Shown here: piece after piece, positions 2,143-27,269 of the stretch | Layout of the letters: the number at the start of each line of letters is the position of its first letter | Numbering within the stretch: the first letter of the stretch is position 1 | NCBI RefSeq assembly: GCF_014651715.1 | Contig: NZ_BMXK01000008.1 | Location: 1-64,000, forward strand | Origin: Zhihengliuella salsuginis | GTDB taxonomy: Bacteria > Actinomycetota > Actinomycetes > Actinomycetales > Micrococcaceae | Direction: 5' to 3' | DNA: 64,000 bases | Made by a program: the position numbers and the translations under genes | Notes under the pieces: generated by a model | What the model saw: the letters and a program-made list of their open reading frames with translations, nothing else | Database searches by the model: none | What the model was told of the DNA's origin: nothing

Positions 2143-3186
2143 TCATCGAAACGGGTCCCAACCGCTCGACGCTTGGCCGATGTTCTCCGCCAGCCAATCG
2201 CGTGCGAACCTCTCATCGATCCGCACTTCGGCTTCCCCGGGCTCGGCTCGCCCCACAAAGCACCAATCCTCCGGTAGATCAGCATCCGCGTCGAACGCCG
2301 CAAAGAGAGCGAAGCCCTCTCCACCCGTTAGAACCCACTTCCACGGATCGACTCCAGTCGAGCCTGCAGCCTCGTGAAGCTTCCGGAGTTCGTGCTCGAG
2401 AGACGCGGACTCAAGGCGAATCGATACGCCAGAGGCGTCCGCAATGCGTTCAGCATCACGGACAAGCCCATCGGACAGGTCCAACATTGCGTGGGCACCG
2501 CTGGCCCGGGCCACCGCGCCTGCTCCAATGCGAGGCCGGGGACGCAACTGTCCAAGCACCGCGGAACGGACATCTTCTGGCCATTCGCTGGGGAAGTCAC
2601 CAACGGGCATCGTCTGAATTTCAGACCGGGAAGTCGCCTGTTCGAGGACATCTACACCGGCGGCCGCTTGTCCGAGGACCCCGCAGACTGCCAGTATGTC
2701 GCCGGGACGTGCGCCGGAGCGCAGCACGGGCTCTCCCCCGTCGAGGGAACCGAACGCGGTCGTCGTCACGGAGATCTCGCGTCCCCGGCCGACATCTCCG
2801 CCGATGATCGCACAGTCGTGCGCTCCGAGCTGTTCGATGGAATCCGATACCCCTGCGGCGAAGGACGCAACCCAGCCGAGATCGATCTCGGCCGGCAGGC
2901 TCAGACTGGTCACGATGCCGGTGGGCCTCGCCCCCATCGCGTTGATGTCCGAGAGATTCTGCGCCACCGACTTCCAGCCGACGTCGTAGCCGGTGGTTCG
3001 GTAGCCGCAGGGCCAGACCCTGCGGAAGTCCTGATCCTCGGTGATCGTGTCCACCGTGGTGACCAGTCGGCCGTCCGGAACGGACAGCATTCCAGCGTCG
3101 TCACCGGGCCCGAGAAGCGGCGCCGCCGACCGGTAGCCGGCCAGCAACGTCTCGATCAGTTCTTTCTCTGTAAATCCCCTGCTCAC
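2143..3186 (-). CDS. thiL: Thiamine-monophosphate kinase ThiL
   Basis: A cytoplasmic kinase that phosphorylates thiamine monophosphate to thiamine diphosphate with ATP. The 347-residue product has GPGDDAGM near residue 27, VTTVDTITEDQDF, QNLSDINAMGA and LDLSDGL, the acidic Mg-ATP sites of the AIR synthase-like ThiL fold. The usual GGEDYEL near the C-terminus reads GGEGFAL here, a mild departure. The start chosen is GTG 3186, which overlaps the TGA of the upstream GTPase gene (GTGA). It gives an N-terminus (VSRGFTEKELIETLL) typical of the family, whereas an upstream ATG would add an atypical extension inside the GTPase gene. Coupling implies co-transcription with the GTPases. No TPP-riboswitch signature was noticed. 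Confidence 0.92.
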   Translation of the reverse strand: MSRGFTEKELIETLLAGYRSAAPLLGPGDDAGMLSVPDGRLVTTVDTITEDQDFRRVWPCGYRTTGYDVGWKSVAQNLSDINAMGARPTGIVTSLSLPAEIDLGWVASFAAGVSDSIEQLGAHDCAIIGGDVGRGREISVTTTAFGSLDGGEPVLRSGARPGDILAVCGVLGQAAAGVDVLEQATSRSEIQTMPVGDFPSEWPEDVRSAVLGQLRPRPRIGAGAVARASGAHAMLDLSDGLVRDAERIADASGVSIRLESASLEHELRKLHEAAGSTGVDPWKWVLTGGEGFALFAAFDADADLPEDWCFVGRAEPGEAEVRIDERFARDWLAENIGQASSGWDPFR

Positions 3187-4880
3187 GAGGCGCCACCCGA
3201 TCTTGCGCACGCGGCAGCGGCCCGGAAAGTGTTGCACCGCTCGATCTCTTCACGCACCGGTTCGACGACTTTGTCCCCGGCGACGCGCGACACCGACTCC
3301 TGCAGCCGCCGTCGGACTGTGCGCCCTCGGATGGCGGCTCCGGCTCGGGCGATCGCGGCAGATGCCAAGGCCAAAACCACGCCCGCGAGCAATCCCGCGG
3401 CGACCAACAACGTCGGAACGGCAATACCCTCCACGCGCGGTGCCGGGGGAACCTCGAATTGGAAGTAGTCCGCCACCGCCAATCCGAGGAGCCACACGGC
3501 TCCAGCCAGCGCTGCGGCCAGAGCGATCCACTGCACAACGGCAACGACGTACCACCACCAGGATTTCGCGTTTGCCTTGAGGTCGGTACCGGCGACGGCA
3601 CGATCGAGATGCTGGGGCAGCTCGTCCCGATTCGCGATCCCGGCATCGCGAATCGCGTACTGCCAGGCCGGTGGCGCCCCTTCTCCGGCCCGCTCGGTAA
3701 AACGGCGCACCGCGCCGTCGGCCATGGCACGCTGGGCCGCCCCCGCAGCCGGAAGAGAAGTGCGGTTGACGTCGGGATTCACGTCCGCCGACTTGAGGTT
3801 GAGGCGCCGCAGAGGATCCGGCCGCAGCTTCGAGACCCATTTTGTGAGGGGCCACCCCGTGTAGGCGGTAGCGTCCAGGCGGTAAGACCGTTTCGCCGCC
3901 CGGACCACCGTCTCGACGCCGACAGCGTCCGCCAGACTCGCCGCAAGCGCCTGCCGCTCGGGACGACCCGGCTGGGCGAGCGCAGTCTCTGCCGCGTCCA
4001 CCGCGAGAGCATCCCCCGCCCGGCTGACGTCGGCCGTCAAACGCTGGTGTGCGGCCGACCTCCGATCCACCATCGCACGGATGTCCGCTCGGAGTCCGTC
4101 GATCCCCTCCCCCGTCGCGGCCGACACCGCGCGCAGCTTCTGCCGGGGGATCCCATCCGCATCGAGCAACGCCGACAGCGACGCCAGAACGGGTTGCACC
4201 TCCGCCTCCGGCAATCGGTCGGACTGGTTCAGGACGATGAGCGTCACGGCATCGTGCGAGGCCAGGCGGCTCAGGAAGTCCCGATGCACGACGGCGTCCG
4301 CGTACTTCTGCGGGTCCAGGACGAATACCAGCACGTCGACCTGTCCGGCCATCCGATCCACCACATCGCGGTGCTCACGGGCCGTCGAATCGAAATCGGG
4401 CAGATCCAGGAGGATGAGCCCACCGGCCGGCACGACGGAGTCCCCCCGCCACCACCGCCCGAGCCCGCTGCGCTGCGGCTGATCGGACGCGTGCGCGTCC
4501 TCGATGACGTGCCGATCCTGAACCTGGAGCCAGTCCAGGAGCTCGCCCGCATCGGCCGCCTGTGCGCCGGCGTGCTCGTAGACAGCAGCCAACGCCCGGC
4601 TCGTCGTCGGCCGTGTCGCCGCCGTTCGCGCCAGCTCGACGCCGACCATCGCGTTGAAGAGCGAGCTCTTTCCGGAGCCCGTGGCTCCGAAGAATCCGAC
4701 CACCGTATGATCGGACGACAACTGACGCCGCCGTGAGGCCCGCTCGAGGACCTGCTCCCCTTGACTGACTGCTTCACCGGAGACGCGGCCACGTCCTGCC
4801 TCGACAGCTGCGCGCAGGCAGCCCAGGCGCTCCTCGAGCTCGTCCGGAGCTGTCCCCTTGGTTTTCAGTGCTCTAGGCAC
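3183..4880 (-). CDS. YfjP/dynamin-like GTPase with two C-terminal membrane segments
   Basis: A 565-residue GTPase. The P-loop GATGSGKSS is at residues 65-73, a switch-I-like RPTTSR follows at about 90, LLDLPDFDS at about 158-165 replaces the canonical DxxG, and NQSD at 218-221 fits the G4 base-recognition motif. Two hydrophobic segments near residues 440-466 and 488-510 predict membrane anchoring with a short loop between them, then a basic C-terminal tail. This layout recalls bacterial dynamin-like and IniA/IniC-type proteins that act at membranes, but the actual role is not known. The start is GTG 4880, overlapping the TAG of the preceding GTPase gene and preceded by GGGAAGG and GGGG. It probably works with the neighbouring paralogue. 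Confidence 0.82.
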   Translation of the reverse strand: MPRALKTKGTAPDELEERLGCLRAAVEAGRGRVSGEAVSQGEQVLERASRRRQLSSDHTVVGFFGATGSGKSSLFNAMVGVELARTAATRPTTSRALAAVYEHAGAQAADAGELLDWLQVQDRHVIEDAHASDQPQRSGLGRWWRGDSVVPAGGLILLDLPDFDSTAREHRDVVDRMAGQVDVLVFVLDPQKYADAVVHRDFLSRLASHDAVTLIVLNQSDRLPEAEVQPVLASLSALLDADGIPRQKLRAVSAATGEGIDGLRADIRAMVDRRSAAHQRLTADVSRAGDALAVDAAETALAQPGRPERQALAASLADAVGVETVVRAAKRSYRLDATAYTGWPLTKWVSKLRPDPLRRLNLKSADVNPDVNRTSLPAAGAAQRAMADGAVRRFTERAGEGAPPAWQYAIRDAGIANRDELPQHLDRAVAGTDLKANAKSWWWYVVAVVQWIALAAALAGAVWLLGLAVADYFQFEVPPAPRVEGIAVPTLLVAAGLLAGVVLALASAAIARAGAAIRGRTVRRRLQESVSRVAGDKVVEPVREEIERCNTFRAAAACARSGGAS

Positions 4881-6672
4881 GATCCCCGCCTTCCCTCGGG
4901 CCGGCACTGCTGCGACGCGTGGCGACGAGTGATCTCGTATCCACGACGGCCCGGCCCAGCTTCTCCACGTCAACGGTGTCCCGGACTCCGGTCAGGAGCG
5001 CCTCGAAACGCTCCGCTTCGGCAGAATGGAGCCCTGCGACGCGGTCCTCCAGCAGCGACCGGGCCTTCCGTGCCAACCGTCTGACGGCCTCCTCTCCGAA
5101 GATCGCCTCCAGGAGCTTCTGCCCGACCACCGCCGAGCCACCGGCGATGCCCACCTCCAGGCCCGTCAGCCCCGCCGTCGACGCGAAGACGACCACCATC
5201 AGGGCCACGGCGACGCCGTTGACCCCGAACGAAACCATCCGGGCGGTGAAACGCTTTCCCTCCCCCTCGGTCCGAATCAGCTCCATGAGGTCCGTCTGCC
5301 ACGCCCGGACCTCGGCCCCGGTCCGTTCGGAGAAATCCGGGGAGAGGCGTCCGACGTCGGTGCCGTCCAGCACGCCGCGGCCCGCCGGCGTCGCCCTCCA
5401 CGAACGGTAGACGAGCTCGGTGGCCCGCGCGGCCGAATCGACGATGACGGCGTGCAGGCCGGTCTCGATGGCCTCCTCCACCGTTTTGACGGGCACGGGT
5501 TTTCCCGTGAAGAAGGCGCCGATGCGATCCCGGACCCGTCCGACGGTCGTCTCCAGCGACCGGAAGAATTCCCCGGTTCCCACGAAGTCCTGCCACCGGG
5601 CCAGGACCTCGCCCCGCAGCAGGGTACCGTCCTGCGCGGCGTCGCTGACGTCGTCCTTGGCCTGCGCGAAGGCCCGCTCGACGATGTCGGCGAGGTGCTC
5701 GGCTTCTTCCAGCTGGTCCTGCTCGGCGGACAGGACTGCCTCGGACAGTTCGGCGACCTGGTCGACGGCACCGGCCAGCGTACGGCGGGCGACCTCCGAA
5801 CGTGCTGCGGCGTCAGATGCGAGACCGGTCAGCCAGTCCTTGACGTCGGCCACCGCGGTGGGCGGAAGCATCCCGTCTTCGTCGAGCCTGGTCTCCTCCA
5901 CCACGAAGAGGCGGGCGTCGTCGAGCCCGCGTTCGGCGAGCAGGGAGTGCAGGTGGGAGGAGATCTCTCCCGCCGCCTCCGCCGGTACACGGTCGAGGAC
6001 GACGCCCACGGTGATGTCGCGCCTCGCAGCGTCGTCGAGCAGCTCCCACGGAACGGCATCCGCGTACCGGTTGGCCGTCGTGACGAACAGCCAGAGGTCC
6101 GCGGCGGCGAGGAGCTGTCCTGCGAGCCGCCGGTTCTCGTCGGCGATGGAGTCCACGTCCGGGGCGTCGAGGAGGGCCAGTCCCCTGGGAATCGACGTCT
6201 CGCCCAGCACCACGAGCGAACCCGCCAGTGCCGGATTCTGTTCAGCCGTGGATGGCAGGGGCCGCGATGCGCCGTCGTCACCCTCGCCGCCAGCGCGGCG
6301 TCCGACGATCCGTTCGAGGCCGGGAAGAACCCGGTTCGTTTGGAACCAGGCCGCTTCCTCCGGGTGGTGGAGGAGGATCGGTTGGCGGGTGGTCGGGCGG
6401 ATGGCGCCGGCCCGGGTGACCGGATGTCCCACCAGGGCGTTGACGAGGGTCGACTTGCCCGCCCCCGTGGAGCCGCCGACGACCGCCAGCAGGGGCGCGT
6501 CCAGACTCTGGTACCGGGGAATCACATGGTCTCTGAGCTGTCCGATGGCTCGGTTGCGAGCCGCCTCGCCGGTCTCGCGGCTTCCGAGGGCCAGCGGCAG
6601 GCGGGCCGCGGACAGTTCATGCTGGGCCGCCGTCAGCGTTTCGACTGCGACTGCGACGTGCGCTGCATCCAT
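4873..6672 (-). CDS. YfjP/dynamin-like GTPase, first of a coupled pair
   Basis: A 599-residue protein with P-loop GSTGAGKST at 67-75, IRPTTRQP at about 91 and LLDAPDVDS at 167-175, the same modified G3 as its neighbour. A clear G4 N/TKxD is not visible: the equivalent stretch reads VVLDRVPAE, so guanine recognition may be weak. A long middle region rich in Glu, Gln and Ala suggests coiled coil. A hydrophobic stretch (MVSFGVNGVAVALMVVVF, then GLTGLEVGIAGGSAVVG) near residues 500-540 looks membrane-inserting. ATG 6672 was chosen because AGGAGG lies 10 bases upstream; frames extending further cross a tRNA gene. It is coupled to the second GTPase gene by an 8-base overlap. It may form a hetero-oligomer with it. 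Confidence 0.82.
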   Translation of the reverse strand: MDAAHVAVAVETLTAAQHELSAARLPLALGSRETGEAARNRAIGQLRDHVIPRYQSLDAPLLAVVGGSTGAGKSTLVNALVGHPVTRAGAIRPTTRQPILLHHPEEAAWFQTNRVLPGLERIVGRRAGGEGDDGASRPLPSTAEQNPALAGSLVVLGETSIPRGLALLDAPDVDSIADENRRLAGQLLAAADLWLFVTTANRYADAVPWELLDDAARRDITVGVVLDRVPAEAAGEISSHLHSLLAERGLDDARLFVVEETRLDEDGMLPPTAVADVKDWLTGLASDAAARSEVARRTLAGAVDQVAELSEAVLSAEQDQLEEAEHLADIVERAFAQAKDDVSDAAQDGTLLRGEVLARWQDFVGTGEFFRSLETTVGRVRDRIGAFFTGKPVPVKTVEEAIETGLHAVIVDSAARATELVYRSWRATPAGRGVLDGTDVGRLSPDFSERTGAEVRAWQTDLMELIRTEGEGKRFTARMVSFGVNGVAVALMVVVFASTAGLTGLEVGIAGGSAVVGQKLLEAIFGEEAVRRLARKARSLLEDRVAGLHSAEAERFEALLTGVRDTVDVEKLGRAVVDTRSLVATRRSSAGPREGGDRA

Positions 6673-6756: not shown

Positions 6757-6762
6757 CAAGGG

Positions 6763-6835
6763 TGACCCCAGCGGGATTCGAACCCGCGTTGCCGCCGTGA
6801 GAGGGCGGAGTACTAGGCCGCTATACGATGGGGCC
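6763..6835 (-). tRNA. tRNA-Glu (anticodon CTC), distal copy
   Basis: A 73-base cloverleaf on the minus strand. The acceptor GGCCCCA pairs with TGGGGTC, the anticodon arm is CCGCC-CTCTCAC-GGCGG with CTC at 34-36, and the T arm is GCGGGTTCGAATCCCGC. No CCA is encoded. It is identical in sequence to the copy at 6917-6989, and a terminator follows at once. It reads GAG, the dominant Glu codon in this genome region. Confidence 0.97.
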
Positions 6836-6916
6836 CTTGGTGACACAAGCACAAGATCCTGAACCGTGTGGACGCGAAAAACGACCTCCGGAACAGCTAT
6901 CAACTGCTTGCGTTCG

Positions 6917-6989
6917 TGACCCCAGCGGGATTCGAACCCGCGTTGCCGCCGTGAGAGGGCGGAGTACTAGGCCGCTATACGATGGGGCC
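6917..6989 (-). tRNA. tRNA-Glu (anticodon CTC), proximal copy
   Basis: Identical over all 73 bases to the gene at 6763-6835, with an 81-base spacer between the copies. Same strand as tRNA-Gln and gltX. The perfect identity points to recent duplication or ongoing gene conversion. Confidence 0.97.
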
Positions 6990-7270: not shown

Positions 7271-8785
7271 TCAGGCCACGGGCATCTGGGCTGCGAAGGC
7301 CGCCAGGCGCTTCAGCGACGACTCACGGCCCAGGATCACCATCGACTCGAACAGCGGCGGCGAGATGCGGCGCCCCGAGATGGCGGCCCGTACGGGCCCG
7401 AAGGCCTTCCTGGGCTTGAGCCCGAGGTCATCGATCAGCGCCGAGCGCAAGGCGCCCTCGATGGCGTCCTTGTCCCAGGCCTGCAGGGCCTCGAGGGCCG
7501 CCGTGGCCTTCGCGACGACCTCACCGAGATTCTCCGGCATGCCCTTGAGCGCGTCGTCCGCGACATCGAGCTCGTCATCGGCGGTGAAGAGGAAGCCGGT
7601 CATGTCCGGGGCCTCCGCGAGCAGCGTGATGCGCTCCTGGACCAGCGGAGCGACCTCGGTGAGGATCTCCGCCTCCCGCTGGCTCGGCGTCTCCCCCACC
7701 AGGCCGGCAGCCTGGAAGTAGGGCACCAGGCGGTCGCGGAAGTCGCCCGGCTCCAGCTGACGGACGTGCGTACCGTTGATGGCTTCGGCCTTCTTGAGAT
7801 CGAAGCGGGCCGGATTGGCGAGGACGTCGGAGACGTCGAAGGCCTCGATGAGCTCTTCGCGGGTGAAGATGTCCTCGTCGGCGGACAGGCTCCATCCCAG
7901 CAGGGCCAGGTAGTTGAGCAGTCCCTCGGGGATGAAGCCGCGGTCCCGGTGGATGAAGAGGTTCGCCTCCGGGTCGCGCTTGGAGAGCTTCTTGTTGCCC
8001 TGGCCCATGACGTAGGGCAGGTGTCCGAAGAGGGGCATGTACTGGGCGACGCCGATCTCGATCAGGGCCCGGTACAGCGCGACCTGGCGCGGGGTCGACG
8101 ACAGGAGATCCTCGCCACGGAGCACGTGCGTGATTCCCATCAGGGCGTCGTCGACGGGGTTCACCAGCGTGTACAGCGGCTTGCCATTGCCGCGAACGAC
8201 GACGAAGTCCGGCGTCGCACCGGCCTTGAACGTGATCTCCCCGCGCACGAGGTCCGTGAAGGTGATGTCGTCCTCGGGCATGCGCAGGCGCAGTACCGGC
8301 TCGCGCCCCTCGGCGCGGAACGCCTCGATCTGCTCGGCGCTCAGGTCGCGGTCGTAATTGTCGTAGCCGAGCTTCGGATCGCGCCCGGCGGCCTTGTGGC
8401 GCTCCTCGACCTCGTCCGGCGTGGAGTAGGACTCGTAGACGTGTCCGCCCGCCAGCAGCTTGGAGATGACGTCCTGGTACAGGTCGGAACGCTGCGACTG
8501 GCGGTACGGCTCGTGCGGGCCGCCGACGACGACGCCCTCGTCCCAGGTGATGCCCAGCCACTCGAGGGCTTCGAGGAGCTGCTGGTAGCTCTCCTCGGAG
8601 TCGCGCTGAGCGTCGGTGTCCTCGATGCGGAAGATCATCTTGCCGCCCGTGTGGCGGGCGTAGGCCCAGTTGAACAGGGCCGTACGGATCAGGCCCACGT
8701 GCGGGGTGCCTGTCGGCGAGGGGCAAAAACGGACGCGGACGGGGGTTTCTTCGGTCACTGTCGGCAGAGTCGTGGCACTAGTCAT
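7271..8785 (-). CDS. gltX: Glutamyl-tRNA synthetase
   Basis: A class I aminoacyl-tRNA synthetase of 504 residues that charges tRNA-Glu with glutamate. The HIGH-type signature is [16 protein letters not shown] at residues 23-37 and the KMSKS-type loop is KLSKRD at 266-271. The C-terminal helical anticodon-binding region is complete. In most actinobacteria this enzyme also mischarges tRNA-Gln, which is then amidated by GatCAB. Its position next to tRNA-Gln and two tRNA-Glu genes on the same strand fits that role. The first ~12 residues before [11 protein letters not shown] are a short extension common in actinobacterial forms. Confidence 0.96.
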
Positions 8786-8838: not shown

Positions 8839-9120
8839 TCACCGACGTCGTGCGAGCGAGAGCACCAGAGCCGCAAACGCGGCGAGAGCGAACCCGACCG
8901 CCAGGACGATGCAGGTCCCGACCAGAGGCGCCGGCAGGTGTACGGCATCACCGACTCGTGCGGCGGCCCCGAAGAGCACTGCGAGGACCAGCCAGAGCCG
9001 TCTGGATCGGACCAGGGGCCATCGCCTCGACCGGGCTGGATGACGCGCCTGCCCGTGCCCCGGCTTTCGCGGCGGCGGATACTCGCCCGGCCCATCGCCC
9101 GGCGTCACGGGATCCGGCAC
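8839..9120 (-). CDS. Small two-segment membrane protein, unknown function
   Basis: A 93-residue product. The Pro/Gly/Arg-rich N-terminus is followed by two predicted membrane helices, about LWLVLAVLFGAAARVG (residues 42-57) and PLVGTCIVLAVGFALAAFAA (65-84), and the protein ends with LARRR. The start is GTG 9120, overlapping the last 16 bases of the heparinase-like gene, which suggests translational coupling. No strong ribosome binding site is visible and no family is recognised, so existence is moderately supported only. gltX begins 53 bases downstream. Confidence 0.5.
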   Translation of the reverse strand: MPDPVTPGDGPGEYPPPRKPGHGQARHPARSRRWPLVRSRRLWLVLAVLFGAAARVGDAVHLPAPLVGTCIVLAVGFALAAFAALVLSLARRR

Positions 9121-11873
9121 CAGGGCGTGGTCTGTCCGGTCGCCGGTCCGCCGCGGGTCCGCGAATACACCCGTGCCCGGTACTTCCCGGCTGGCAGGCC
9201 GTCCCAGACGAACTCGGTACCGTTCCCGTAGCCGGTCTCCTCCACGACGTCCGCGTCCCGATACAGTTTGACAGCGATCTGCCTGCCGGCGGCGCCGTCC
9301 ACCCGCAGCCTGAGCCCCGGCCCGTCCGGTTCAACATCCAGCCGGAGACCGACCGGGCTTTCATCGCCGGACGGGGTCTTCGCTTCCGGCGGGGCAGGCT
9401 CGTCGGGTCGGGGCCGGGCGGAGTCCGGCCGGCGCACCTCCGAGACGGCGCCGATCCTGGACCGCAGGAAGTCTTTGAATACCGGCCCCACTTCCGCGTG
9501 GGGAGTTCCGGGCACGACTTCGAGACGGACCTCGTGCCCGGCCTCCCGGGCCTGGTCCACCCACGGCAGCACGTGGTTCCTGTAGTGGTGGTCGGCATCG
9601 CCCACGATCAGGTCGACGGCGGGGATGTCCCGGTGCCGTGGAAGCTGATCGAACAGGACCGAATCGAGCTGTTCGACGTCGCCCGGTCCGGTACCACCCG
9701 TCATGAATTCCAAGACGTTCGGATGAGGCTTCTCCAGGAAGGATCCGATCCGCGTCTGCGGTGCACCGACGACGATGCCGCCGGCACCGAATTCGATGCC
9801 GTGGTAGATCGCAGCCGTGCCGCCCTTGGAACTTCCGATGCAGTACACCGATCGGCGGGAGACGCCCAACCGGTCAGCGGTTTCCGCGATCACGCGTTGA
9901 ACCGCGTCCGCGATCTGCGTCCGGCCGTGGTCCTGCAGGTAGTAGCTGCCCTGGTCTCCGAAGTCGTCGAGGATGTAGAGGACATTCACGTGCAGGTCCT
10001 GCAGCGAGTTCTTGTAGTTGTAGGTGAAGTGCCCCTTGGGGCTGATCGCCGAGAAGACGACCACCAGGGGTGCGTCCGCCGGCTGCTCGACGGCTTCGAG
10101 CCTGTAGTTCAACGGGGGCACCGTGCTGGACCGCTGCCACTGGTTTTTTCCGTCCACCAAGGCGAGATCCGCATAGTTGAAGTCACCTCGAACGGCGAAG
10201 CGCGTCTCCACCCGCGCTCGAGCCGCCGCGAACTCGACGCGCACGACGTTCGCGGGCTCGACCTTGCCGAACTCCGGGAAGGACCAGCCGAGCGGCCGCT
10301 CTCCGGACTCGCCGCGGTGCACGGTCACTCGAGTCGGCACGTCCGCGGTGAACAGCGCATCGAGAACCTTCACCCCGTCCCGGAATGCCTCGAATCCCTG
10401 TCCATGCGGAACCACCTCCAGGTTGGCGGCGAGGTTCCAGAACTGCTCCCAGGTGCGCGTCCGATCCGCCGTCGATTCGACGGTGTCGACGATCCGTACG
10501 ACATCCGCATCGTCGCCGGTGGCGACGGAGACCTGTCGTTGATGGTGGCCGTCCGGCAGCCGCCCGGTCTCGGACGTCACCTCGAACCCGGCATCCGTGG
10601 TCTCTGCGGCGCTCATGCGGACTGTTTCGGCGCGGGTGTCGACGCGCCGGACGCTGCGGCCGTCCAGAACGATGTTGTTGTGGGCGTACTGGCTGAACGC
10701 GTACACGGTCAACGGGTCCGCGTAGTTGTATCCGTAAGGCCCGGCCTCGGTCAGCAGCGGCTGCCCCAGAGAGTGGACGACCACCGACAGGTCGTCCGAG
10801 TGCTTGTGGTAGTCCGAGTTGTAGGCGGCCGTGGTCATGACCCACGTCGCCTGGGGGTCGGCCCATGCCGAACGGTGGATGGCATAGCCCGATGCGGGCA
10901 GGAGGAGAGTGCGCTCCGCCGGCTCCCGGCCGCGTCGGCCACCGGAAACGGAGAAGTCGAAGCCGGCGTCGTCGAAGATCCTGCCCGCCAAACCGCGAAG
11001 GTCCCTGGCGACGGAATCACTGAGCAGCGGATACCTTCCCGTCGGGGTCACGACGTGGGCCGCGTAGCGCGCCGCCTTGGCGAGGATCGCGTCCAGCTCC
11101 GAATCCGTGTCCCCCCGCTGATGAAGGTACACGGAGTGCTCCCCCAGGTACTGGCAGACCATCTGGTGGTACGTCGGTGAATTCTCGACATGCACGCCAT
11201 CGGCCGTGAAGCACGTCGAGAAGTAGTCGTGCAGCCGCCGCAGGGCCACCTGACGCGTTGCCTCGAGCACACCGGCGTCATTCCACGTCGCCATCTCCGA
11301 ATAGTGCCTCAGCGCCAGGTCCTGGAACATTCCGTGGTTGTTCCACCCCGCGTGGAAGTCCTCCCGGCGCAGGATCGCAGCGGTCGCGTCGATGGCTTCC
11401 CGCAGAGGTGCCAGGTCCGAGACTCCGCCTCGGCGGAGATTCCACTCCACCAGCAGCCAGTGCATCAACCGCTGGGCGGTTGTCTCGTCGTGGTAGGCCA
11501 TGGGATGCCTGGCCGATTCCGGCTGGAGGCCGGCGGACTCCACCCAGCGGCCGATCAGCTCCAGGACGGCGGCGCGTACCCGTTGTTCCGGTGCCTCGAG
11601 GACCGACGCCCAATCGGCCAGAAAGAGGAACCCGTGCGTGAACCGGTCCCGCGTCCGGTCGCCCACGTCATCCCAGACCCGGCCGCCGTCGTACGTGAGA
11701 TCGCCGAACCTCGGCGAGCGGATCACACCGCCCGTCAGGTACGCCTCCACCGCGCTGTCGCTGGATGCCCCCACGCGTCGCGGCAGCCGACCATAGCTGT
11801 AATCGCCCAAGTCTGCGCCCGAAGCGTCGGCCGCGGCAGAAGAGGAGCCGGTATTCGTTGGATTCATCCACAT
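9105..11873 (-). CDS. Heparinase II/III-like polysaccharide lyase fused to an Asp2-like alpha/beta hydrolase
   Basis: A 922-residue protein with at least three parts. Residues about 60-560 look like a heparinase II/III lyase: an alpha-helical barrel with FHAGWNNHG (174-181) and ENSPTYHQM (230-238), then a beta domain beginning with YHKHSDDLSVV (355-365), the family hallmark. Residues about 590-810 resemble an alpha/beta hydrolase of the Asp2 type, with nucleophile elbow CIGSSKGGTAA (Ser 681/682), acid GDADHH (759-763) and a His in GTPHAEV (792). Residues about 840-922 form a small beta domain. No signal peptide is evident, so it acts in the cytoplasm or reaches its polymer another way. A role in an acidic, perhaps acylated, polysaccharide is inferred. 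ATG 11873 or 11867 could be the start. Confidence 0.78.
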   Translation of the reverse strand: MWMNPTNTGSSSAAADASGADLGDYSYGRLPRRVGASSDSAVEAYLTGGVIRSPRFGDLTYDGGRVWDDVGDRTRDRFTHGFLFLADWASVLEAPEQRVRAAVLELIGRWVESAGLQPESARHPMAYHDETTAQRLMHWLLVEWNLRRGGVSDLAPLREAIDATAAILRREDFHAGWNNHGMFQDLALRHYSEMATWNDAGVLEATRQVALRRLHDYFSTCFTADGVHVENSPTYHQMVCQYLGEHSVYLHQRGDTDSELDAILAKAARYAAHVVTPTGRYPLLSDSVARDLRGLAGRIFDDAGFDFSVSGGRRGREPAERTLLLPASGYAIHRSAWADPQATWVMTTAAYNSDYHKHSDDLSVVVHSLGQPLLTEAGPYGYNYADPLTVYAFSQYAHNNIVLDGRSVRRVDTRAETVRMSAAETTDAGFEVTSETGRLPDGHHQRQVSVATGDDADVVRIVDTVESTADRTRTWEQFWNLAANLEVVPHGQGFEAFRDGVKVLDALFTADVPTRVTVHRGESGERPLGWSFPEFGKVEPANVVRVEFAAARARVETRFAVRGDFNYADLALVDGKNQWQRSSTVPPLNYRLEAVEQPADAPLVVVFSAISPKGHFTYNYKNSLQDLHVNVLYILDDFGDQGSYYLQDHGRTQIADAVQRVIAETADRLGVSRRSVYCIGSSKGGTAAIYHGIEFGAGGIVVGAPQTRIGSFLEKPHPNVLEFMTGGTGPGDVEQLDSVLFDQLPRHRDIPAVDLIVGDADHHYRNHVLPWVDQAREAGHEVRLEVVPGTPHAEVGPVFKDFLRSRIGAVSEVRRPDSARPRPDEPAPPEAKTPSGDESPVGLRLDVEPDGPGLRLRVDGAAGRQIAVKLYRDADVVEETGYGNGTEFVWDGLPAGKYRARVYSRTRGGPATGQTTPWCRIP

Positions 11874-11928: not shown

Positions 11929-12690
11929 TCAGCGGCGGAACTGGTTCAGCAGCGTCCCGATCCCCTCGACCTCGACCTCGAACCGCTGGCCCTCACGCAG
12001 CAGTCCGACGCCGGCCGGGGTGCCCGTCAGGATGACGTCGCCCGGCAGGAGGGTGAACGCCTGCGAGGCGAACGACACCAGCTCCGCCACCGACCACACC
12101 ATGTCCGACGTGTTGCCGTCCTGGACGGTCTCGCCGTCGAGGCGGCCGACGACGCCCACGTCTTCGGGATCGAACTCGGTCTCGATCCACGGCCCGATCG
12201 GGCACGACCCGTCCCACCCCTTGGCGCGGCCCCACTGCAGGTCGGTCTTCTGGACGTCGCGGGCGGTGAGGTCGTTGGCGCAGGTGTAGCCGAAGATCAC
12301 GTCAGCGACCTTCTCCGCCGGGACATCCTTGCAGATACGGCCGATCACCACGGCCAGCTCGGCCTCGTAGGAGATCTCCTCGGAGAAGGACGGGAGCGTG
12401 ACCGGGTCGCCCGGGCCCGCAATGGCCGTATTCGGCTTGAGGAACATCAGAGGCGACGCCGGGACCTCGTTGCCCAGCTCGGACGCGTGGTCGGCGTAGG
12501 TCCGGCCGAAGCACACGACCTTCGACCGGGGGATGATCGGCGCCACCAGCCTGACATCGTCGATCGCGTGCTTGGTGCCGGTCGGCTGGACCCCCTGATA
12601 GAAGGGGTCGCCTGCGATCCCGACGATCTCATCGCCGTTCACGACGCCGTACTGCGGGTCTCCATCTACAACAAAACGTGCAATTCGCAT
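11929..12690 (-). CDS. Fumarylacetoacetate hydrolase family protein
   Basis: A 253-residue FAH-fold enzyme. YEAELAVVIG supplies the paired acidic metal ligands, CANDLTARDVQ the third acid, and LLPGDVILTGTPAGVG is the typical C-terminal signature. Family members include acylpyruvate hydrolases, oxaloacetate decarboxylases and isomerases, and the substrate cannot be read from sequence. ATG 12690 (MRIARFVVDG) was chosen because it matches the normal family N-terminus; the longer frame to 12744 would run through the hairpin downstream of ilvE. It is the last gene after ilvE on this strand. Confidence 0.88.
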   Translation of the reverse strand: MRIARFVVDGDPQYGVVNGDEIVGIAGDPFYQGVQPTGTKHAIDDVRLVAPIIPRSKVVCFGRTYADHASELGNEVPASPLMFLKPNTAIAGPGDPVTLPSFSEEISYEAELAVVIGRICKDVPAEKVADVIFGYTCANDLTARDVQKTDLQWGRAKGWDGSCPIGPWIETEFDPEDVGVVGRLDGETVQDGNTSDMVWSVAELVSFASQAFTLLPGDVILTGTPAGVGLLREGQRFEVEVEGIGTLLNQFRR

Positions 12691-12722
12691 GACGTCCACC
12701 TTACTGGTCGCTGCCAAATAGA

Positions 12723-12754
12723 ACTGCGGCCGACGCATCTGCATCGACCGCAGT
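12723..12754 (-). terminator. Hairpin downstream of ilvE
   Basis: ACTGCGGCCGA (12723-12733) pairs with TCGACCGCAGT (12744-12754) with one mismatch. On the minus strand it is followed by TCTATTTGG. It lies just after the ilvE stop codon and probably terminates ilvE transcription before the FAH-family gene. Confidence 0.65.
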
Positions 12755-12774
12755 CCTCTACCAAAACGGATCGT

Positions 12775-13863
12775 CTAGGCGAGCCGGGTGAGCCAGCCGT
12801 GCTTGTCGGCGACGGCACCGGTCTGGATGCCCAGCAGCTCTTCGCGGATGCTCAGGGTGAGCGAGTCCTCGGCGAGCTCCGGGGACGGGATGTCGCCGTC
12901 TGCCGTCTTCAGCTCCCCGATCGGCGTGATCACGGCTGCCGTCCCGCAGGCGAAGACCTCGCGCAGGGTGCCGTTCGCCGCTGTGCGGCGCCACTCGTCC
13001 AGCGTGATCTTCCGCTCGTCGAGCGTGAGCCCGCGGTCCTTGATCAGCTGGATGACCGACTTGCGCGTCACACCGTGCAGGATGTTGCCGTTGAGCGCCG
13101 GCGTGACGACGCGGCCGTCGTCGAACACGAAGAACACGTTCATGCCGCCGAGCTCTTCGACGGCGTCGTCGTTGAACGGGTCGAGGAACAGGACCTGCTG
13201 GCACCCGTTCTCCTCGGCCTCGAGCTGCGCGGCCAGGGACGCGGCGTAGTTGCCGCCGCACTTGGCCTCGCCGGTGCCGCCGCGTCCAGCGCGTGCGTAC
13301 TGCGTGGACAGCCAGATGGAGACCGGCTTGAGCTTGCCGCCGAAGTAGTTGCCTGCCGGCGACGCGATGAGCCGGTAGGACACCTCGCGTGCCGGCCGGA
13401 CGCCCAGGAAGGCCTCGGTCGCGATCATGAACGGGCGCAGGTAGAGCGCCTCGCCCTCGCCGGCGGGAACCCACTCCTGGTCGGTCTTGACGAGCTCCTT
13501 GAGCGACTCGACGAACGCCTCGGCGGGCAGGTCGGGCAGCGCCAGGCGCTGGGCCGACTTGTTGAACCGCTCTGCATTGGCCTCCGGACGGAACGTCCAG
13601 ACGGTCCCGTCCGAGTGCCGGTACGCCTTGAGGCCCTCGAAGATCTCCTGGCCGTAGTGCAGGACGGATGCGGCAGGGTCGAGCGCGATCGGTCCGTAGG
13701 GCTCGATGCGCGCGTTCGACCAGCGGCCGCCGTCGTCGGTCCAGTTCCAGTCGATCACCGCGGTGTGGTCGGTGAAGTGGTTGCCGAACCCCGGGTTGGC
13801 GAGTACGGCGGCGCGCTCCTCGTCGCTCTTGGGGGTAGTTGAGAGCTGCTGGGAGAATTCCAT
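12775..13863 (-). CDS. ilvE: Branched-chain amino acid aminotransferase
   Basis: A fold-type IV PLP aminotransferase of 362 residues that interconverts Leu, Ile and Val with their 2-oxo acids, the last step of synthesis and first step of breakdown. Seen: HYGQEIFEGLKAYRH, YLRPFMIATE, the PLP-lysine segment GEAKCGGNYAASL, FLDPFNDDAVEELGGMNVFF and FACGTAAVITPI, all typical of the long bacterial BCAT-II type. It is followed on the same strand by a hairpin and preceded, 81 bases away, by leuB, so the two may be co-transcribed. Confidence 0.95.
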   Translation of the reverse strand: MEFSQQLSTTPKSDEERAAVLANPGFGNHFTDHTAVIDWNWTDDGGRWSNARIEPYGPIALDPAASVLHYGQEIFEGLKAYRHSDGTVWTFRPEANAERFNKSAQRLALPDLPAEAFVESLKELVKTDQEWVPAGEGEALYLRPFMIATEAFLGVRPAREVSYRLIASPAGNYFGGKLKPVSIWLSTQYARAGRGGTGEAKCGGNYAASLAAQLEAEENGCQQVLFLDPFNDDAVEELGGMNVFFVFDDGRVVTPALNGNILHGVTRKSVIQLIKDRGLTLDERKITLDEWRRTAANGTLREVFACGTAAVITPIGELKTADGDIPSPELAEDSLTLSIREELLGIQTGAVADKHGWLTRLA

Positions 13864-13944
13864 GGTGCCGGCGGTGCTTTCTCTTATTGGACTATGGGTG
13901 TCGAGCTCGCGCTGCAGCGGTGCAGCGCGGGTTCTGAGGCCAGC

Positions 13945-21316: not shown

Positions 21317-23797
21317 ATGCTCACCCTCGCCCTCGCCAACATCCGGACCTACGCCCGGCGGCTCATCGCCGTCGTCCTGGCCGTGCTCATCGGGACCGCC
21401 TTCCTCGCGGCGACCCTGATGGTCAACGCCAGCACCACCGCCTCGCTGGAGCGCAGCATCGGCGAGTCCTACCAGGACGCCGACCTGGTGGCGGCCGTCG
21501 ACTGGGACCGCTTCGCCGGCGGCGACTCGACCGGCGCCCTCACCCGGAACGACGTGCGCCAGGCCGGCGGCGTGCCCGGCGTCCAGTCCGCCCTGGGCTA
21601 CGACGTCGATCCGATCCGCGCCAGCGCCGGGGAGAAGACCGTCGCCGCGGGCCTGGCGGAGATCCCCGGGGAACCGTGGCCCGCACCGGAGATCACTGAA
21701 GGCGACCTGCCGACGCGGAACACCCAGGTGGTGCTCGACACCGAGTCCGCGGCCGACGCCGGCATCGCCGTCGGCGACTCGATCGAGCTCCTCACGGAGG
21801 CGAACGCGGATCCGGTGACGGTGACCGTCTCGGGCCTGACCGAGCCCAGCATGAACCCCATGACGGCGGCGAACATGCAGATCTACGGCCTCCCGAAGCT
21901 CCTGGAGGCGACGCTGACCGCCGAGCAGCAGCAGCAGGTCGGCGCCGTGCACCTGATGCTCGACGCGGGTGCCGACACCGCGGCGGTCGCCTCCGACGTG
22001 TCGGCGGCCATGGCGGACTCCGACGCGGGTCCGGTCTCCGTGAAGACGGCCGACGAGCAGGTGATGGCCGAGGTCAACCAGATGACCGGCGGCAACCAGG
22101 CGATCACGCTCGTGCTCATGGTCTTCGTTCTCGTCGCGCTCGTGGTGACCGGGCTCGTGGTCGTCAACACCTTCTCCGTCCTGCTGGCCCAGCGCATCCG
22201 AGAACTCGCACTCCTGCGGACGATCGGCGCCTCCCGCGGGCAGCTGAACCGTTCCGTGCTCGTCGAAGCCGCAATCGTCGGCTTCGTGTCCTCGCTGCTG
22301 GGCGTCGGGGCCGCGGCCCTGATCATGTCGGGACTCGTCGCCTACGCGCAGACGATGCCCGAAGCCTCGTTCGTCACCCTCGCCATCCCGCTGGAGGCCG
22401 TGGTGGTCACCACGGTCGTCGGCACGCTCCTCACGCTCGCCGCCGCCTGGTGGCCGGCGCGCAAGGCCACCAGGGTGGCACCGCTGGAGGCCATGCGCCC
22501 CGCGGATGCGGCCAGCGAGTCGCAGCGGCTCGGACGGGTGCGCATCGTCTTCGGCGCGGTCCTCACCCTGCTCGGCGCGGCCGTTCTCGGCCTCGGAGCG
22601 TCGCAGGGGCAGCTCGTCATCGGGTTCGCCGGCGGCATCGTCTCGTTCATCGGCCTGCTCCTGCTGGCTCCCCTGTTCGTCCTGCCGGCCATCACGTGGA
22701 TCGGCCGGCTGACCGGCCGCACGGTGCCGGCGAAGCTGGCGGCCCTCAACGCGGTGCGCAACCCCTCGCGCACGGCAGCCACGGCGACGGCCCTGCTCAT
22801 CGGCGTCACTCTCGTGACGATGATGATGACCGGCGCGCAGACCGCCAAGGCGACCTTCGACTCGCGACTGGCCGGCGAGTTCCCGATCGACACCTCCGTC
22901 GACGGGAGCATGGCCGGCGTCGAACTGGATGCGGACTCCGTCGCCACGGTCTCCGCTCTCGACGGCGTCGAGTCGGCGATTCTGGCGACTGCGGTGGCCA
23001 GCGACGAATCGGGGATGCCTGTCTACAGCGCCGACGAGGCCGAGCTCGCCTCCGTCCTCAACGACCCATCCCTCGTGCCGGGCCCGGGCGAGGTGACGGT
23101 GCCCCAGTACGTGACGGACGACGTCGTCGTACCGACCGCCGACGGAACGACGACGCTGACCGCCGTCGTCAGCCAGAGCGTTGGGCTGCCGCCGGTCGTC
23201 ACGTCGGAAACGGCCGCAACGCTGGGCGCCGAGGCCCCGGACCACCCCGCCGCCCTGTGGGTCAAGGCCGAGCCGGGCGTCGATCCCGCCGCCGCGCTCG
23301 AGCTGCGCACCGAGATCGCCGAGGCCCTGGGCGTCGAGGAATTCTCCGTCAGCGGCGGGCTGGTGGAGAAGGGCCTCTTCACGCAGATCATCGACGGCCT
23401 GCTGATGGTCGTGGTCGGCCTGCTCGCCGTCGCGGTGCTGATCGCCGTGATCGGCGTGGCGAACACGCTGAGCCTGTCCGTGCTCGAGCGCACCCGGGAG
23501 AACTCCCTGCTGCGGGCGCTCGGCCTCCGGGCGCGGCAGCTGCGAACGATGCTCTCCGTCGAGTCCGTCCTCGTCGGCGTCACAGCCGCCCTGCTGGGGA
23601 TCATCCTGGGGTCGGCCTACGGCGTCCTCGGCGTCCAGTCGGCGCTCGGGACGATGGCGACGACCGTGATCTCCATCCCGTGGCTGCAGCTGGCCGCGGT
23701 CCTCGCCATCGCGATCATCGCCGCATGGCTGGCCTCCGTGGTTCCGGGGCGCCGCGCCGCCCGCCTCTCCCCCGTGGAGGGTCTCGCCAGCGAATAG
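21317..23797 (+). CDS. FtsX-like ABC transporter permease
   Basis: An 826-residue permease with the duplicated FtsX layout: an N-terminal helix (LIAVVLAVLIGTAFLAATL), a large extracytoplasmic domain, three helices (about residues 255-400 with ALLRTIGASRGQLNRSVLVE), then a second half repeating this order and ending with NSLLRALGLRARQLRTML, three helices and SPVEGLASE. ATG 21317 was chosen: it lies directly after the ATPase gene stop with no gap to speak of, and the longer upstream frame is only an overlap in another frame. The last ~176 bases recur as a second copy at 25445-25621. Confidence 0.93.
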   Translation: MLTLALANIRTYARRLIAVVLAVLIGTAFLAATLMVNASTTASLERSIGESYQDADLVAAVDWDRFAGGDSTGALTRNDVRQAGGVPGVQSALGYDVDPIRASAGEKTVAAGLAEIPGEPWPAPEITEGDLPTRNTQVVLDTESAADAGIAVGDSIELLTEANADPVTVTVSGLTEPSMNPMTAANMQIYGLPKLLEATLTAEQQQQVGAVHLMLDAGADTAAVASDVSAAMADSDAGPVSVKTADEQVMAEVNQMTGGNQAITLVLMVFVLVALVVTGLVVVNTFSVLLAQRIRELALLRTIGASRGQLNRSVLVEAAIVGFVSSLLGVGAAALIMSGLVAYAQTMPEASFVTLAIPLEAVVVTTVVGTLLTLAAAWWPARKATRVAPLEAMRPADAASESQRLGRVRIVFGAVLTLLGAAVLGLGASQGQLVIGFAGGIVSFIGLLLLAPLFVLPAITWIGRLTGRTVPAKLAALNAVRNPSRTAATATALLIGVTLVTMMMTGAQTAKATFDSRLAGEFPIDTSVDGSMAGVELDADSVATVSALDGVESAILATAVASDESGMPVYSADEAELASVLNDPSLVPGPGEVTVPQYVTDDVVVPTADGTTTLTAVVSQSVGLPPVVTSETAATLGAEAPDHPAALWVKAEPGVDPAAALELRTEIAEALGVEEFSVSGGLVEKGLFTQIIDGLLMVVVGLLAVAVLIAVIGVANTLSLSVLERTRENSLLRALGLRARQLRTMLSVESVLVGVTAALLGIILGSAYGVLGVQSALGTMATTVISIPWLQLAAVLAIAIIAAWLASVVPGRRAARLSPVEGLASE
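23622..23797 (+). repeat. 3' end of the permease gene, copy A of a 176-base direct repeat
   Basis: From GCGTCCTCGG through the stop codon this stretch matches 25445-25621, with about eleven substitutions and one inserted base in copy B (roughly 93% identity by eye). Similarity continues more weakly through the terminator hairpins that follow each copy. Confidence 0.9.
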
Positions 23798-23816
23798 CTC
23801 TCGGCAAAAACGACAA

Positions 23817-23862
23817 CGGCCCGTCGCGTCCATCTCCTATTGGAGGGGAACGCGGCGGGCTG
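23817..23862 (+). terminator. Hairpin downstream of the ABC permease gene
   Basis: GGCCCGTCGCGT (23818-23829) pairs with ACGCGGCGGGCT (23850-23861) with wobble pairs. It is followed by GTCTCCATTAATTCCT. A related, stronger hairpin follows the second copy of the gene end. Confidence 0.65.
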
Positions 23863-23898
23863 TCTCCATTAATTCCTCTTTGTCCACCGGCATCACTG

Positions 23899-25434
23899 AT
23901 GTACGATTCACACATGTTTGTCGCCCGGGTCCCTCAAGAATTCATCACAGGGACGTCGGAGCCCGTAGCCAAGTTCTTTTCCACGACTGACGACCGCCGG
24001 GAGTCTCTCAAGCTCACCCGGGACCGAACCTATGAGCTCGCGTCGATTCCAAAACTCGCCTTCGTCGACCACTCTACAATTGCTTTCCTGCAGCATACGG
24101 ATAACTCGGGCGCCACCGTGACAACGTCGCGCCACCGATTGGGACTCCTTCGTGAGCTCCAGAAGATAACCGTGGACAAGTTATTTGCTCCAAGCAGCAC
24201 TTCGACGGATCTCGACCGGATATTAGGCGCCGTGAGACTGGCCCGATGGATAGGCACACCGGTCGTCGAGGCAGCTTTACGAGCGTTGATAAAACACGCA
24301 CCCCGGAACGCATTGCGAGCGTATCGTCCATACCAGGGGACCGTCCTCGAGGCCCTGCTGAAGGAGGTCGGTCAAGGCCTGAACGACGGCACCTCGATCT
24401 CCAATGCACTCGCGTACATCTATTTCTACAATGAGCTTCTTCGTGCCACAGCTCACACCAGCAAAGACGAACGGCTCGGGGCACTAACGGCGATTCACCG
24501 TGACATCGTGAAACTCGACAGGCTCCCCCTCTGCGTTGCCCTCTCCACGGCGATCACCAGCGTCACCTCGGATTGGACGCAAGCGTCCCGGGTCGCGGAC
24601 CGCGCTCGCCAACTGCATTCTTCACCGCAGACTGCTTCTGCAGAACCAGAGACGGGTGTGTTGACCTTCGGAACCCCCCGGCCTGTCGAACCCAGCGTCT
24701 GTAGGTTCACCGCCAAGGACTTGATCGGCGACATCGTTTCCCGCGGAACAGGCAGACCATGCATCCTCTACTCGGGCGATCCGCGCTTCATACGGACCTA
24801 CGCACCTCGCCTGTTTTTCTACATGACCGCGTTTCCCGAATTCGACTACCACTTCCTTATCATCGGATCTCAATCCGAGGCATCGGCCTGCGCAAGTGAC
24901 CTCGTACGCCTGCAGGAAGAATTAGCGCATTTCCAACATCGCACAGCCGTTCCTTTCAGCGCCTCATACTGCGAAGTCCCCGATGATGTCGACAACATCG
25001 TCTCCTTTTATGCAAGCGCCCGATTCCTGTTCGCTAATAAACAACTCGAAGGGTTCCCGGCCGGTCTCTGGATCCAAGACCTGGACCTTTTCCCAGACGG
25101 CGACTTCACCGGACATCTCGCAAGGATGCAGGCGGCGGACATTTCCATCGTCGCTTCTCGTTCCCTAGCGGGGCTGATGCCTTGGAAACGCTACTTGGCT
25201 GGCAGCGTCTTCATTCGACCAACAACTACTGCCGGCAACCTACTCAATTCCGTTGCGGAATACCTAAGATTTTGGCTCACGAATGGCGGACAATGGATGG
25301 TCGACCAGAACGCACTCTCCTATGCAATCGACCAGAACCCGAACATCGTCCTTTACGATATGTCGGCGGCACAAGTCCCCTTACGCCAATCCACGGTCAA
25401 TTCACGCCTGGAACGGGTCCTCAGCGAAGAATAA
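23899..25434 (+). CDS. Putative GT-A-type glycosyltransferase with an alpha-helical N-terminal region
   Basis: A 511-residue protein that I do not recognise as a named family. Residues 1-250 look mainly helical. From about residue 285 a Rossmann-like sugar-nucleotide transferase pattern is suggested: CILYSGDPRF, WIQDLDLFPDGDF with a DxD-like DLD at 394-396, AGSVFIRPTTTAGNLL (434-449) and WMVDQNALSYAI (466-477). The order DxD, then xGxxFxRPTxxT, then DQ is seen in nucleotide-diphospho-sugar transferases. Its GC content is visibly lower than that of its neighbours, with many A/T-ending codons. No good ribosome binding site precedes ATG 23899 or ATG 23914. It lies exactly between two copies of the permease gene end, pointing to acquisition. 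Confidence 0.7.
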   Translation: MYDSHMFVARVPQEFITGTSEPVAKFFSTTDDRRESLKLTRDRTYELASIPKLAFVDHSTIAFLQHTDNSGATVTTSRHRLGLLRELQKITVDKLFAPSSTSTDLDRILGAVRLARWIGTPVVEAALRALIKHAPRNALRAYRPYQGTVLEALLKEVGQGLNDGTSISNALAYIYFYNELLRATAHTSKDERLGALTAIHRDIVKLDRLPLCVALSTAITSVTSDWTQASRVADRARQLHSSPQTASAEPETGVLTFGTPRPVEPSVCRFTAKDLIGDIVSRGTGRPCILYSGDPRFIRTYAPRLFFYMTAFPEFDYHFLIIGSQSEASACASDLVRLQEELAHFQHRTAVPFSASYCEVPDDVDNIVSFYASARFLFANKQLEGFPAGLWIQDLDLFPDGDFTGHLARMQAADISIVASRSLAGLMPWKRYLAGSVFIRPTTTAGNLLNSVAEYLRFWLTNGGQWMVDQNALSYAIDQNPNIVLYDMSAAQVPLRQSTVNSRLERVLSEE

Positions 25435-25444
25435 CGAGGCCATA

Positions 25445-25621
25445 GCGTGCTCAGGGTCCAGCCGGCGCTGGGGACCGATGGCGACGACCGTGATCTCCAT
25501 CCCGTGGCTGCAGCTGGCCGCGGTCCCGACCATCGCGATCATCGCCGCATGGCTGGCCTCCGTGGTCCCCGGGCGCCGCGCCGCCCGCCTCTCCCCCGTG
25601 GAGGGCCTCGCCAGCGAATAG
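25445..25621 (+). pseudogene. Remnant 3' end of an FtsX-like permease gene, copy B of the direct repeat
   Basis: This stretch encodes the permease C-terminus (VISIPWLQLAA, then IIAAWLASVVPGRR, then SPVEGLASE and stop). It differs from copy A by about eleven substitutions plus one extra C near 25473 that breaks the frame upstream of the tail. It is a fragment, not a gene. The simplest reading is that it is the end of the former resident permease gene, displaced when the cargo gene and a replacement end were inserted. Confidence 0.85.
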
Positions 25622-25640
25622 CGCGGACCCGCGACGAAAA

Positions 25641-25693
25641 CGGCGGCCCGTCGCGTGCCCCTCTGCTGGAGAAGGGCACGAGGCGGGCCGCCG
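25641..25693. terminator. Bidirectional terminator between the exporter locus and metG
   Basis: A stem of about 20 pairs, CGGCGGCCCGTCGCGTGCCC (25641-25660) with 25674-25693, contains one or two mismatches. It lies between converging transcription from the plus-strand cargo gene and minus-strand metG. It is related in sequence to the hairpin at 23817-23862. Confidence 0.8.
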
Positions 25694-25709
25694 TCGTCAC
25701 GCCGTGTGT

Positions 25710-27269
25710 CTAGACCTCTGCGGGCACCTCGTAGCGCGGGAAGATCGGGGCCGGCTCGGGAAGATCGGACCCGGACTCGAGCGGCTCGTCGAAGGCGGTG
25801 AAGACGCGCGCGGCGCCGTCCGCCTGGCCGAGGACGTCGAGCAGCCGGCTCGACGCATCCGGCATGACGGGCTGGACCAGCAGGGCCACCCGGCGGACGA
25901 CCTCGAGGGTGACGTAGAGGACCGTGCGCATCCGCGGTTCGTCGGTCTTGCGCAGGACCCAAGGCTGCTGGTCGGCGAAGTAGGCGTTGGCGTCGCCCAG
26001 AACATTCCAGACGGCCTCGAGGGCCCGGCTGAACTCCTGGCGCTCGAAGTGGTCGCGCACGATCGGCAGCAGGGCGGCCGCCGCGTCGAGGATCTGCTGG
26101 TCGGCAGCGGTGAATTCACCCGGAGCCGGCACCTGCGAATCGCAGTTCTTCTTGACCATCGACAACGAGCGCTGCGCGAGGTTGCCCAGGTTGTTCGACA
26201 GATCGGCGTTCATACGGCCGACGATCGCGTCGTGGCTGTAGGAACCGTCCGCGCCGAAGGGGACCTCGCGCAGGAAGAAGTACCGGATCGAGTCGAGTCC
26301 GTACTGGTCGACGAACTCCGCCGGCGCGATCACGTTGCCCAACGACTTCGACATCTTCACGCCGTTGTTGTGCAGGAAGCCGTGGATCATCACGCGGCCG
26401 GGCAGCTCGAGGCCGGCGGACATGAGGAAGGCCGGCCAGTAGATCGCGTGGAAGCGGGAGATGTCCTTGCCGATCACGTGGACGTCGGCCGGCCAGTACT
26501 TCTTGAAGCTCGCGGACGTCGTGTCCGGGAATCCCGTACCGGTCAGGTAGTTGGTGAGCGCGTCCACCCAGACGTACATGACGTGGTCGGCGTTGCCGGG
26601 CACGGGGACGCCCCAGTCGAACGTCGTGCGGGAGATCGAGAGGTCCTCCAGCCCGCGTTCGACGAAGCGGATCACCTCGTTGAAGCGCGAGCGCGGCGCC
26701 CCGAAGTCCGGGGCGTTGCGGTAGTGCTCGAGCAGCTTGTCCTGGTAGGCGGACAGGCGGAAGAAGTAGGACTCCTCCTCCGTCCAGGTGACCGGCGTGT
26801 CCGTCTCGGTCGCGTAGCGGACCCCGTCCTCGCGGAGCTCCGTGTCCTCCTCGGAGTAGTAGGCCTCGTCCCGGACGGAGTACCAGCCGGCGTACTTGTC
26901 CAGGTAGACGTCGCCGTTGGCCTCCATCCGGCGCCAGATCTCCTGCGCGGCGTCGATGTGGTCCGGGTCCGTGGTCCGGATGAAACGGTCGTAGCTGATG
27001 CCCAGCTCGTCGTTCATCTGCTGGAAGGAATCAGAATTGCGCTGCGCGAGCTCCCTGGGCGAGATCCCCTGCTTCTGCGCGGTCTGCAGCATCTTCTGGC
27101 CGTGCTCGTCGGTGCCGGTCAGGAAGAACACGTCGAACCCGTCGAGCCGCTTGAAACGCGCCATCGCGTCCGTGGCGATGACCTCGTAGGCGTGCCCGAT
27201 GTGCGGAACACCGTTCGGGTACGAGATCGCGGTGGTGATGTAGAAGGGAGTCTGCTCGGTAGAAGTCAC
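25710..27269 (-). CDS. metG: Methionyl-tRNA synthetase
   Basis: A class I synthetase of 519 residues that charges initiator and elongator tRNA-Met. The HIGH motif is PHIGHAYE at 22-29 and KMSKS is at 305-309 ([13 protein letters not shown]). The knuckle region around residue 125-140 ([19 protein letters not shown]) lacks the zinc-binding cysteine pairs, so it is the zinc-free subtype. No C-terminal dimerisation domain is present. It is convergent with the inserted cargo gene across a strong hairpin. Confidence 0.96.

Follow-up and report, generated by a model that had tools for sequence, protein, structure and literature searches.

A one-gene insert between an intact and a relic copy of a permease gene end in Zhihengliuella salsuginis

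The closest described counterpart of the locus reported here is e14 in the icd gene of E. coli, for which the published account describes a 165-bp duplication with 12 nucleotide exchanges, an intact frame upstream, and a relic on the far side (PMC11148124). The locus in Zhihengliuella salsuginis, found in a 64,000-nucleotide window (the whole stretch of DNA that we analyzed), resembles the e14 site as that account portrays it, with integration at the 3' end of a protein gene, an intact upstream end, and a duplicate of about 93% identity, here of 177 bp with 12 substitutions and one insertion. As a prophage, e14 carries an integrase gene, whereas the insert at the permease end holds one gene and no integrase, and its far copy is frameshifted. 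The insert also recalls a CIME, having repeats at both ends and no recombinase or transfer genes, but its repeats are long copies of a gene end that are att-like only by position, and we found no related ICE or IME at the site. A third comparison is with the moron glycosyltransferases of temperate phages, since distant relatives of the cargo gene lie beside an endolysin gene on two viral contigs, one of which has an integrase; the cargo itself, however, falls in another clade, among chromosomal genes that include one from a polysaccharide-export locus, and no phage gene is left beside it.

The upstream side of the locus is an intact open reading frame of 826 aa for an ABC exporter permease (21317–23797, plus strand, from ORF and start calls), presumably of the FtsX/MacB type, whose last 177 bp form the first copy of the repeat (23621–23797, plus strand). 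These 177 bp and a terminator are present again 1.8 kb downstream (coding part 25444–25621, plus strand), directly before a minus-strand gene (25710–27269) that we take to be metG and that, from its position in four of four congeners, is the ancestral neighbor of the permease. A repeat finder returned an ungapped 147-nt match of 96% identity (23652–23798 versus 25476–25622), and gapped alignment extended it to about 23621/25444 upstream and, through the terminator hairpin, to about 23860/25688 downstream. It is the longest direct repeat of at least 60 nt in the window; the others are one 71% match and a tRNA pair, two identical tRNA-Glu genes at 6762–6989 spaced 154 bp start to start. With a direct repeat of a gene end on both sides of the insert and the open frame intact in the upstream copy, the geometry fits the suggestion, made in a first-pass annotation, that DNA integrated at a gene end and rebuilt it; copy 1 would be the working, attL-like end and copy 2 the attR-like relic.

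Alignment of the 177-bp coding copies shows 12 substitutions and one insertion, or about 93% identity. The first-pass annotation had assigned this identity to some 176 bases plus the terminator, which is right for the coding part and not for the terminators, where the two copies are clearly less alike. The hairpin of copy 1 (23816–23863, plus strand) folds at −38.7 kcal/mol (z −6.7, fold of 23815–23875) and that of copy 2, which adjoins metG (25633–25698, plus strand), at −54.3 kcal/mol (z −7.1, fold of 25632–25700), so that both fold strongly yet are built differently in sequence; a search of Rfam at E up to 1 gave just one match, a microRNA family on the terminator, which we judged to be chance. 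Two terminators that are both intact but unlike fit two separately maintained versions of the gene end better than recent copying in place followed by decay.

Intact but different terminators also point to a donor whose version of the gene had diverged, as would be expected if DNA from a related strain, with the cargo behind its own permease end, had entered either by homologous recombination on one side and an illegitimate join on the other (HFIR, a process described in PMC3240628) or as a circle by a RecA-mediated Campbell crossover. Such a capture would give the same final structure and needs no integrase, none being present, and the two copies differ at 7 of 59 third positions, roughly a third of the count against the nearest congener (21 of 59). 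Against this, no donor carrying both the permease end and the cargo was found; the stretch directly downstream of copy 1 (23798–23913) was detected in only 1 of 390 family genomes, its own, and the nearest relatives of the cargo are only about 31–37% identical. We regard this route as a serious candidate, though on balance an improbable one.

The downstream copy is out of frame and is altered at the positions corresponding to 23621, 23630, and 23703, at which all 32 of the further family sequences used agree. Within 23621–23705, six of the seven clearly polarized differences are specific to the relic and alter the protein or the frame, the seventh being derived in copy 1; within 23706–23797, one change is derived in the relic versus two in copy 1. 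For this test of chimerism, which looked for a crossover point, the 13 differences (12 substitutions and the insertion) were sorted by eye, and three were set aside as ambiguous. The resulting pattern is suggestive only and places no crossover point, and in-place decay accounts for most of it. The proposal in the first-pass annotation that the divergence of the copies marks a related-strain donor is favored by the two differently built, intact terminators, but most of the clearly polarized differences are relic damage that could have arisen in place.

Close orthologs of the permease are present in four of four congeneric genomes, and each of these has a single permease end followed by metG after 114–229 bp, the arrangement that the first-pass annotation had predicted for genomes lacking the insert. 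None of the four carries the cargo. With one end and no cargo in all four congeners, the insertion falls in the source lineage, and on the scale of the genus this comparison makes the cargo an insertion. An old fixed duplication, with both copies in all relatives, is ruled out by the single permease end of all four congeners.

Across the family, the slot between permease and metG varies. We surveyed 2.1 to 15.6 kb around the permease end in 40 further, hand-picked genomes, finding metG downstream in 25 of them at gaps from 85 bp to 7.3 kb, six of which are at most 128 bp; in the other 15, metG lies outside the examined stretch, which leaves room for larger insertions there. The suggestion that other strains might carry different cargo at this position was borne out at the family level. 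In G014, for example, the slot (L101, 5562–12616) contains matches to Stealth, to GT2 plus CDP-glycerol glycerophosphotransferase, and to DegT aminotransferase, its GT2 gene having 56% G+C, whereas the slot is empty in G065 and G088, which belong to the same genus as G014 and have gaps of 105 and 128 bp. Among seven proteins from the slots of five other genomes, a Pfam search gave weak FG-GAP/SGL matches and a GrpB match in G021 and no match in the others. We found no relevant report of the permease–metG site as an integration hotspot in the literature on Micrococcaceae.

The family survey also bears on a route by which the transporter gene or genes were duplicated in tandem and most of the second copy was then replaced or deleted by the cargo, leaving the 3' end. 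Such duplications do occur, as seen in G154, where a second long open frame (973 codons) lies downstream of the first and has a permease end 90% identical to it (the tandem permease-like ends are at L132 435–608 and 4399–4572). In Z. salsuginis, however, this route would require two events and leaves the unlike terminators to be explained, there is no other trace of a second transporter, and all four congeners have a single copy; we consider it unlikely. None of the 40 other family genomes showed a truncated second permease end.

Between the copies we took a single long open frame to be a gene, namely the cargo (23914–25434, plus strand), which encodes 506 aa. Its composition is foreign, as the first-pass annotation had stated of the sole gene between the copies, with a G+C content of 0.570 (57.0%) versus 0.694 (69.4%) for the window and 0.717 for the permease, and a third-position G+C of 0.656 versus 0.943 in the permease. 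A foreign gene joined at a repeated permease end might also reflect misassembly or contamination, as such a repeat could mislead an assembler. The locus is nevertheless internal to a contig of 203,674 bases, its two flanks are intact, the genome (3.37 Mb in 32 contigs) is reported as 99.95% complete with 0 contamination, and the damage in the relic and its distinct terminator need real sequence; an artifact is thus very improbable. By eye, a weak candidate promoter precedes the gene (23880–23913, plus strand; TTGTCC, 16 nt, TACGAT, then about 6 nt to the ATG), and the short distance from TACGAT to the ATG suggests that the cargo mRNA may be leaderless; a promoter scanner returned no site, the candidate being below its threshold.

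The cargo protein has no match in Pfam or NCBIfam (E up to 5) or in PADLOC or PHROGs (E up to 1), and a sequence search of solved structures gave three weak matches to a helical respiratory-chain subunit, which we judged to be chance. A structure model built from six sequences (mean pLDDT 71.2; mostly 72–95 per 10-residue block over residues 281–480) places residues 279–506 in a GT-A Rossmann-like fold, supporting a predicted GT-A glycosyltransferase domain, with VIA Z of about 13 to many GT-A enzymes. The match to bovine alpha-1,3-galactosyltransferase (2vs5) has VIA Z 13.7 and rmsd 3.3 over 195 residues, with LARGE1, yeast MNT2, and many blood-group-type enzymes close behind; we assume the matched enzymes to be of the GT6, GT8, GT15, and LARGE types. 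Sequence identity in these VIA comparisons is just 8–14%, and the helical N-terminal part of the cargo has no counterpart among the matched enzymes. Residues D389, D391, W461, D464, Q465, and N466 are invariant in all six aligned sequences, and we read 389–391 as a putative metal-binding DxD and W461 with D464-Q-N as a putative catalytic-site motif.

Relatives of the cargo are rare and distant. Matches were found in 6 of 395 family genomes, at identities of 27–36%, and in 5 of 396 order genomes (the source genome included in both counts). Among named genomes, 10 relatives were found, the best in Propioniciclava; the closest relatives overall are about 31–37% identical. A tblastn search with the cargo matched none of 72,556 plasmid and 50,697 phage records. 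The Propioniciclava relative sits 3' of a UDP-sugar dehydrogenase, a glycosyltransferase, and an ABC-2/ATPase pair in a polysaccharide-export locus, the G149 relative adjoins a UDP-GlcNAc 2-epimerase and an FkbM methyltransferase, and the G288 and L068 relatives adjoin heparinase-like proteins. On viral contigs, relatives of the cargo are accessory genes, one (L076, 5185–6687) following an integrase (2413–3552) and an endolysin (4155–4925), the other (L077) lying between an endolysin gene and a tail-protein gene. In a tree of 19 rows, 17 of them different, the cargo groups with Propioniciclava (82/80), the starred set comprising these two with G149, G409, and G288, and the viral relatives form a different set with G009 and G339. 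Given the fold and these neighbors, the model-based prediction is that the cargo is most likely a surface-glycan glycosyltransferase, possibly one that alters phage receptors.

The cargo is the only gene between the copies, and no integrase accompanies it, in agreement with the first-pass annotation; other phage genes are likewise absent from the insert. The sole PF00589 matches in the source genome are far from the insert, at C12:83204–83767 and C8:193570–194142. The exact 26-mer of the repeat end has no match in the viral contigs, and of 48 pattern-matched stretches for the repeat-end protein in those contigs none was confirmed. A tblastn search with the phage integrase of L076, a single remote query, gave no match in 60 sequences (59 loci and the window). 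Seven of seven loci with cargo relatives lacked a flanking repeat of at least 45 nt, and a search for exact flanking repeats of at least 15 nt in eight loci, six of which were also in the previous set, gave one 15-mer and one 20-mer that we judged to be chance.

We tentatively prefer integration of an element to one-sided or RecA-type capture and to duplication followed by replacement, and put at roughly an even chance that the insert is what is left of a foreign element which entered through one reciprocal crossover in the permease 3' end and, its integrase lost, persists as a one-gene, CIME-like island. On this account, the incoming DNA would have carried its own version of the permease end and terminator, and one crossover with the resident end would have rebuilt a working end upstream and displaced the old one to the far side of the foreign DNA, where it then would have decayed; everything but the glycosyltransferase gene, any integrase included, would have been lost. 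We infer that a recombinase borne by the element made the crossover, that more DNA once lay between the copies, and that the cargo was kept because of the surface-glycan change. Element integration is supported by the empty site in four of four congeners, the e14-like geometry, the damage in the relic set against an intact copy 1, the unlike but intact terminators, the foreign composition, and the relatives on viral contigs. Counting against it are the lack of an integrase, the failure to find the repeat end on viral contigs as a protein or an exact 26-mer, the grouping of the cargo with chromosomal and polysaccharide genes, the lack of a second truncated end in 40 genomes, and the lack of bracketing repeats around those relatives whose flanks were examined.

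A more far-reaching idea, which we hold to be quite unlikely, is that the serA-metG-permease-leuB-gltX region is a recurrent landing place for surface-glycan genes in this family, with the present locus a minimal, one-gene island whose gene-restoring, att-like ends would let Xer or a helper integrase mobilize it in trans, an integron-free single-gene cassette altering the cell surface and phage sensitivity. As it stands, the locus is well explained by known processes and is a tidy case of ordinary gene capture, in which a single, probably surface-modifying gene is lodged behind a conserved gene pair with the host gene unharmed. Its more interesting parts are the variable slot and the cargo itself, which points to an unclassified glycosyltransferase family with members in polysaccharide loci as well as on phage contigs. 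Should the site still be active, the locus would serve as a small natural system for finding out how far an integrated element can be pared down.

The loci of the cargo relatives have some further features. tRNA genes are usual integration targets, and in Kocuria (L042) some 600 bp separate the relative (9117–10541) from a tRNA-Leu gene (8436–8522); no repeat of the tRNA-Leu end was found beyond the cargo-relative gene at this locus. A tandem array of 22-bp units lies upstream of another relative, on one side only (L043, 8016–8213). Of the five other family genomes in which a relative occurs, two have it in the syntenic neighborhood of the cargo (the serA-metG-leuB-gltX side, window 7271–29053) but in different slots, an observation made post hoc: the G339 relative (L043, 8838–10175) lies between genes matching window positions 11932–12774 and 12778–13944, and the G409 relative (L040, 8617–10182) lies about 28 kb from gltX.
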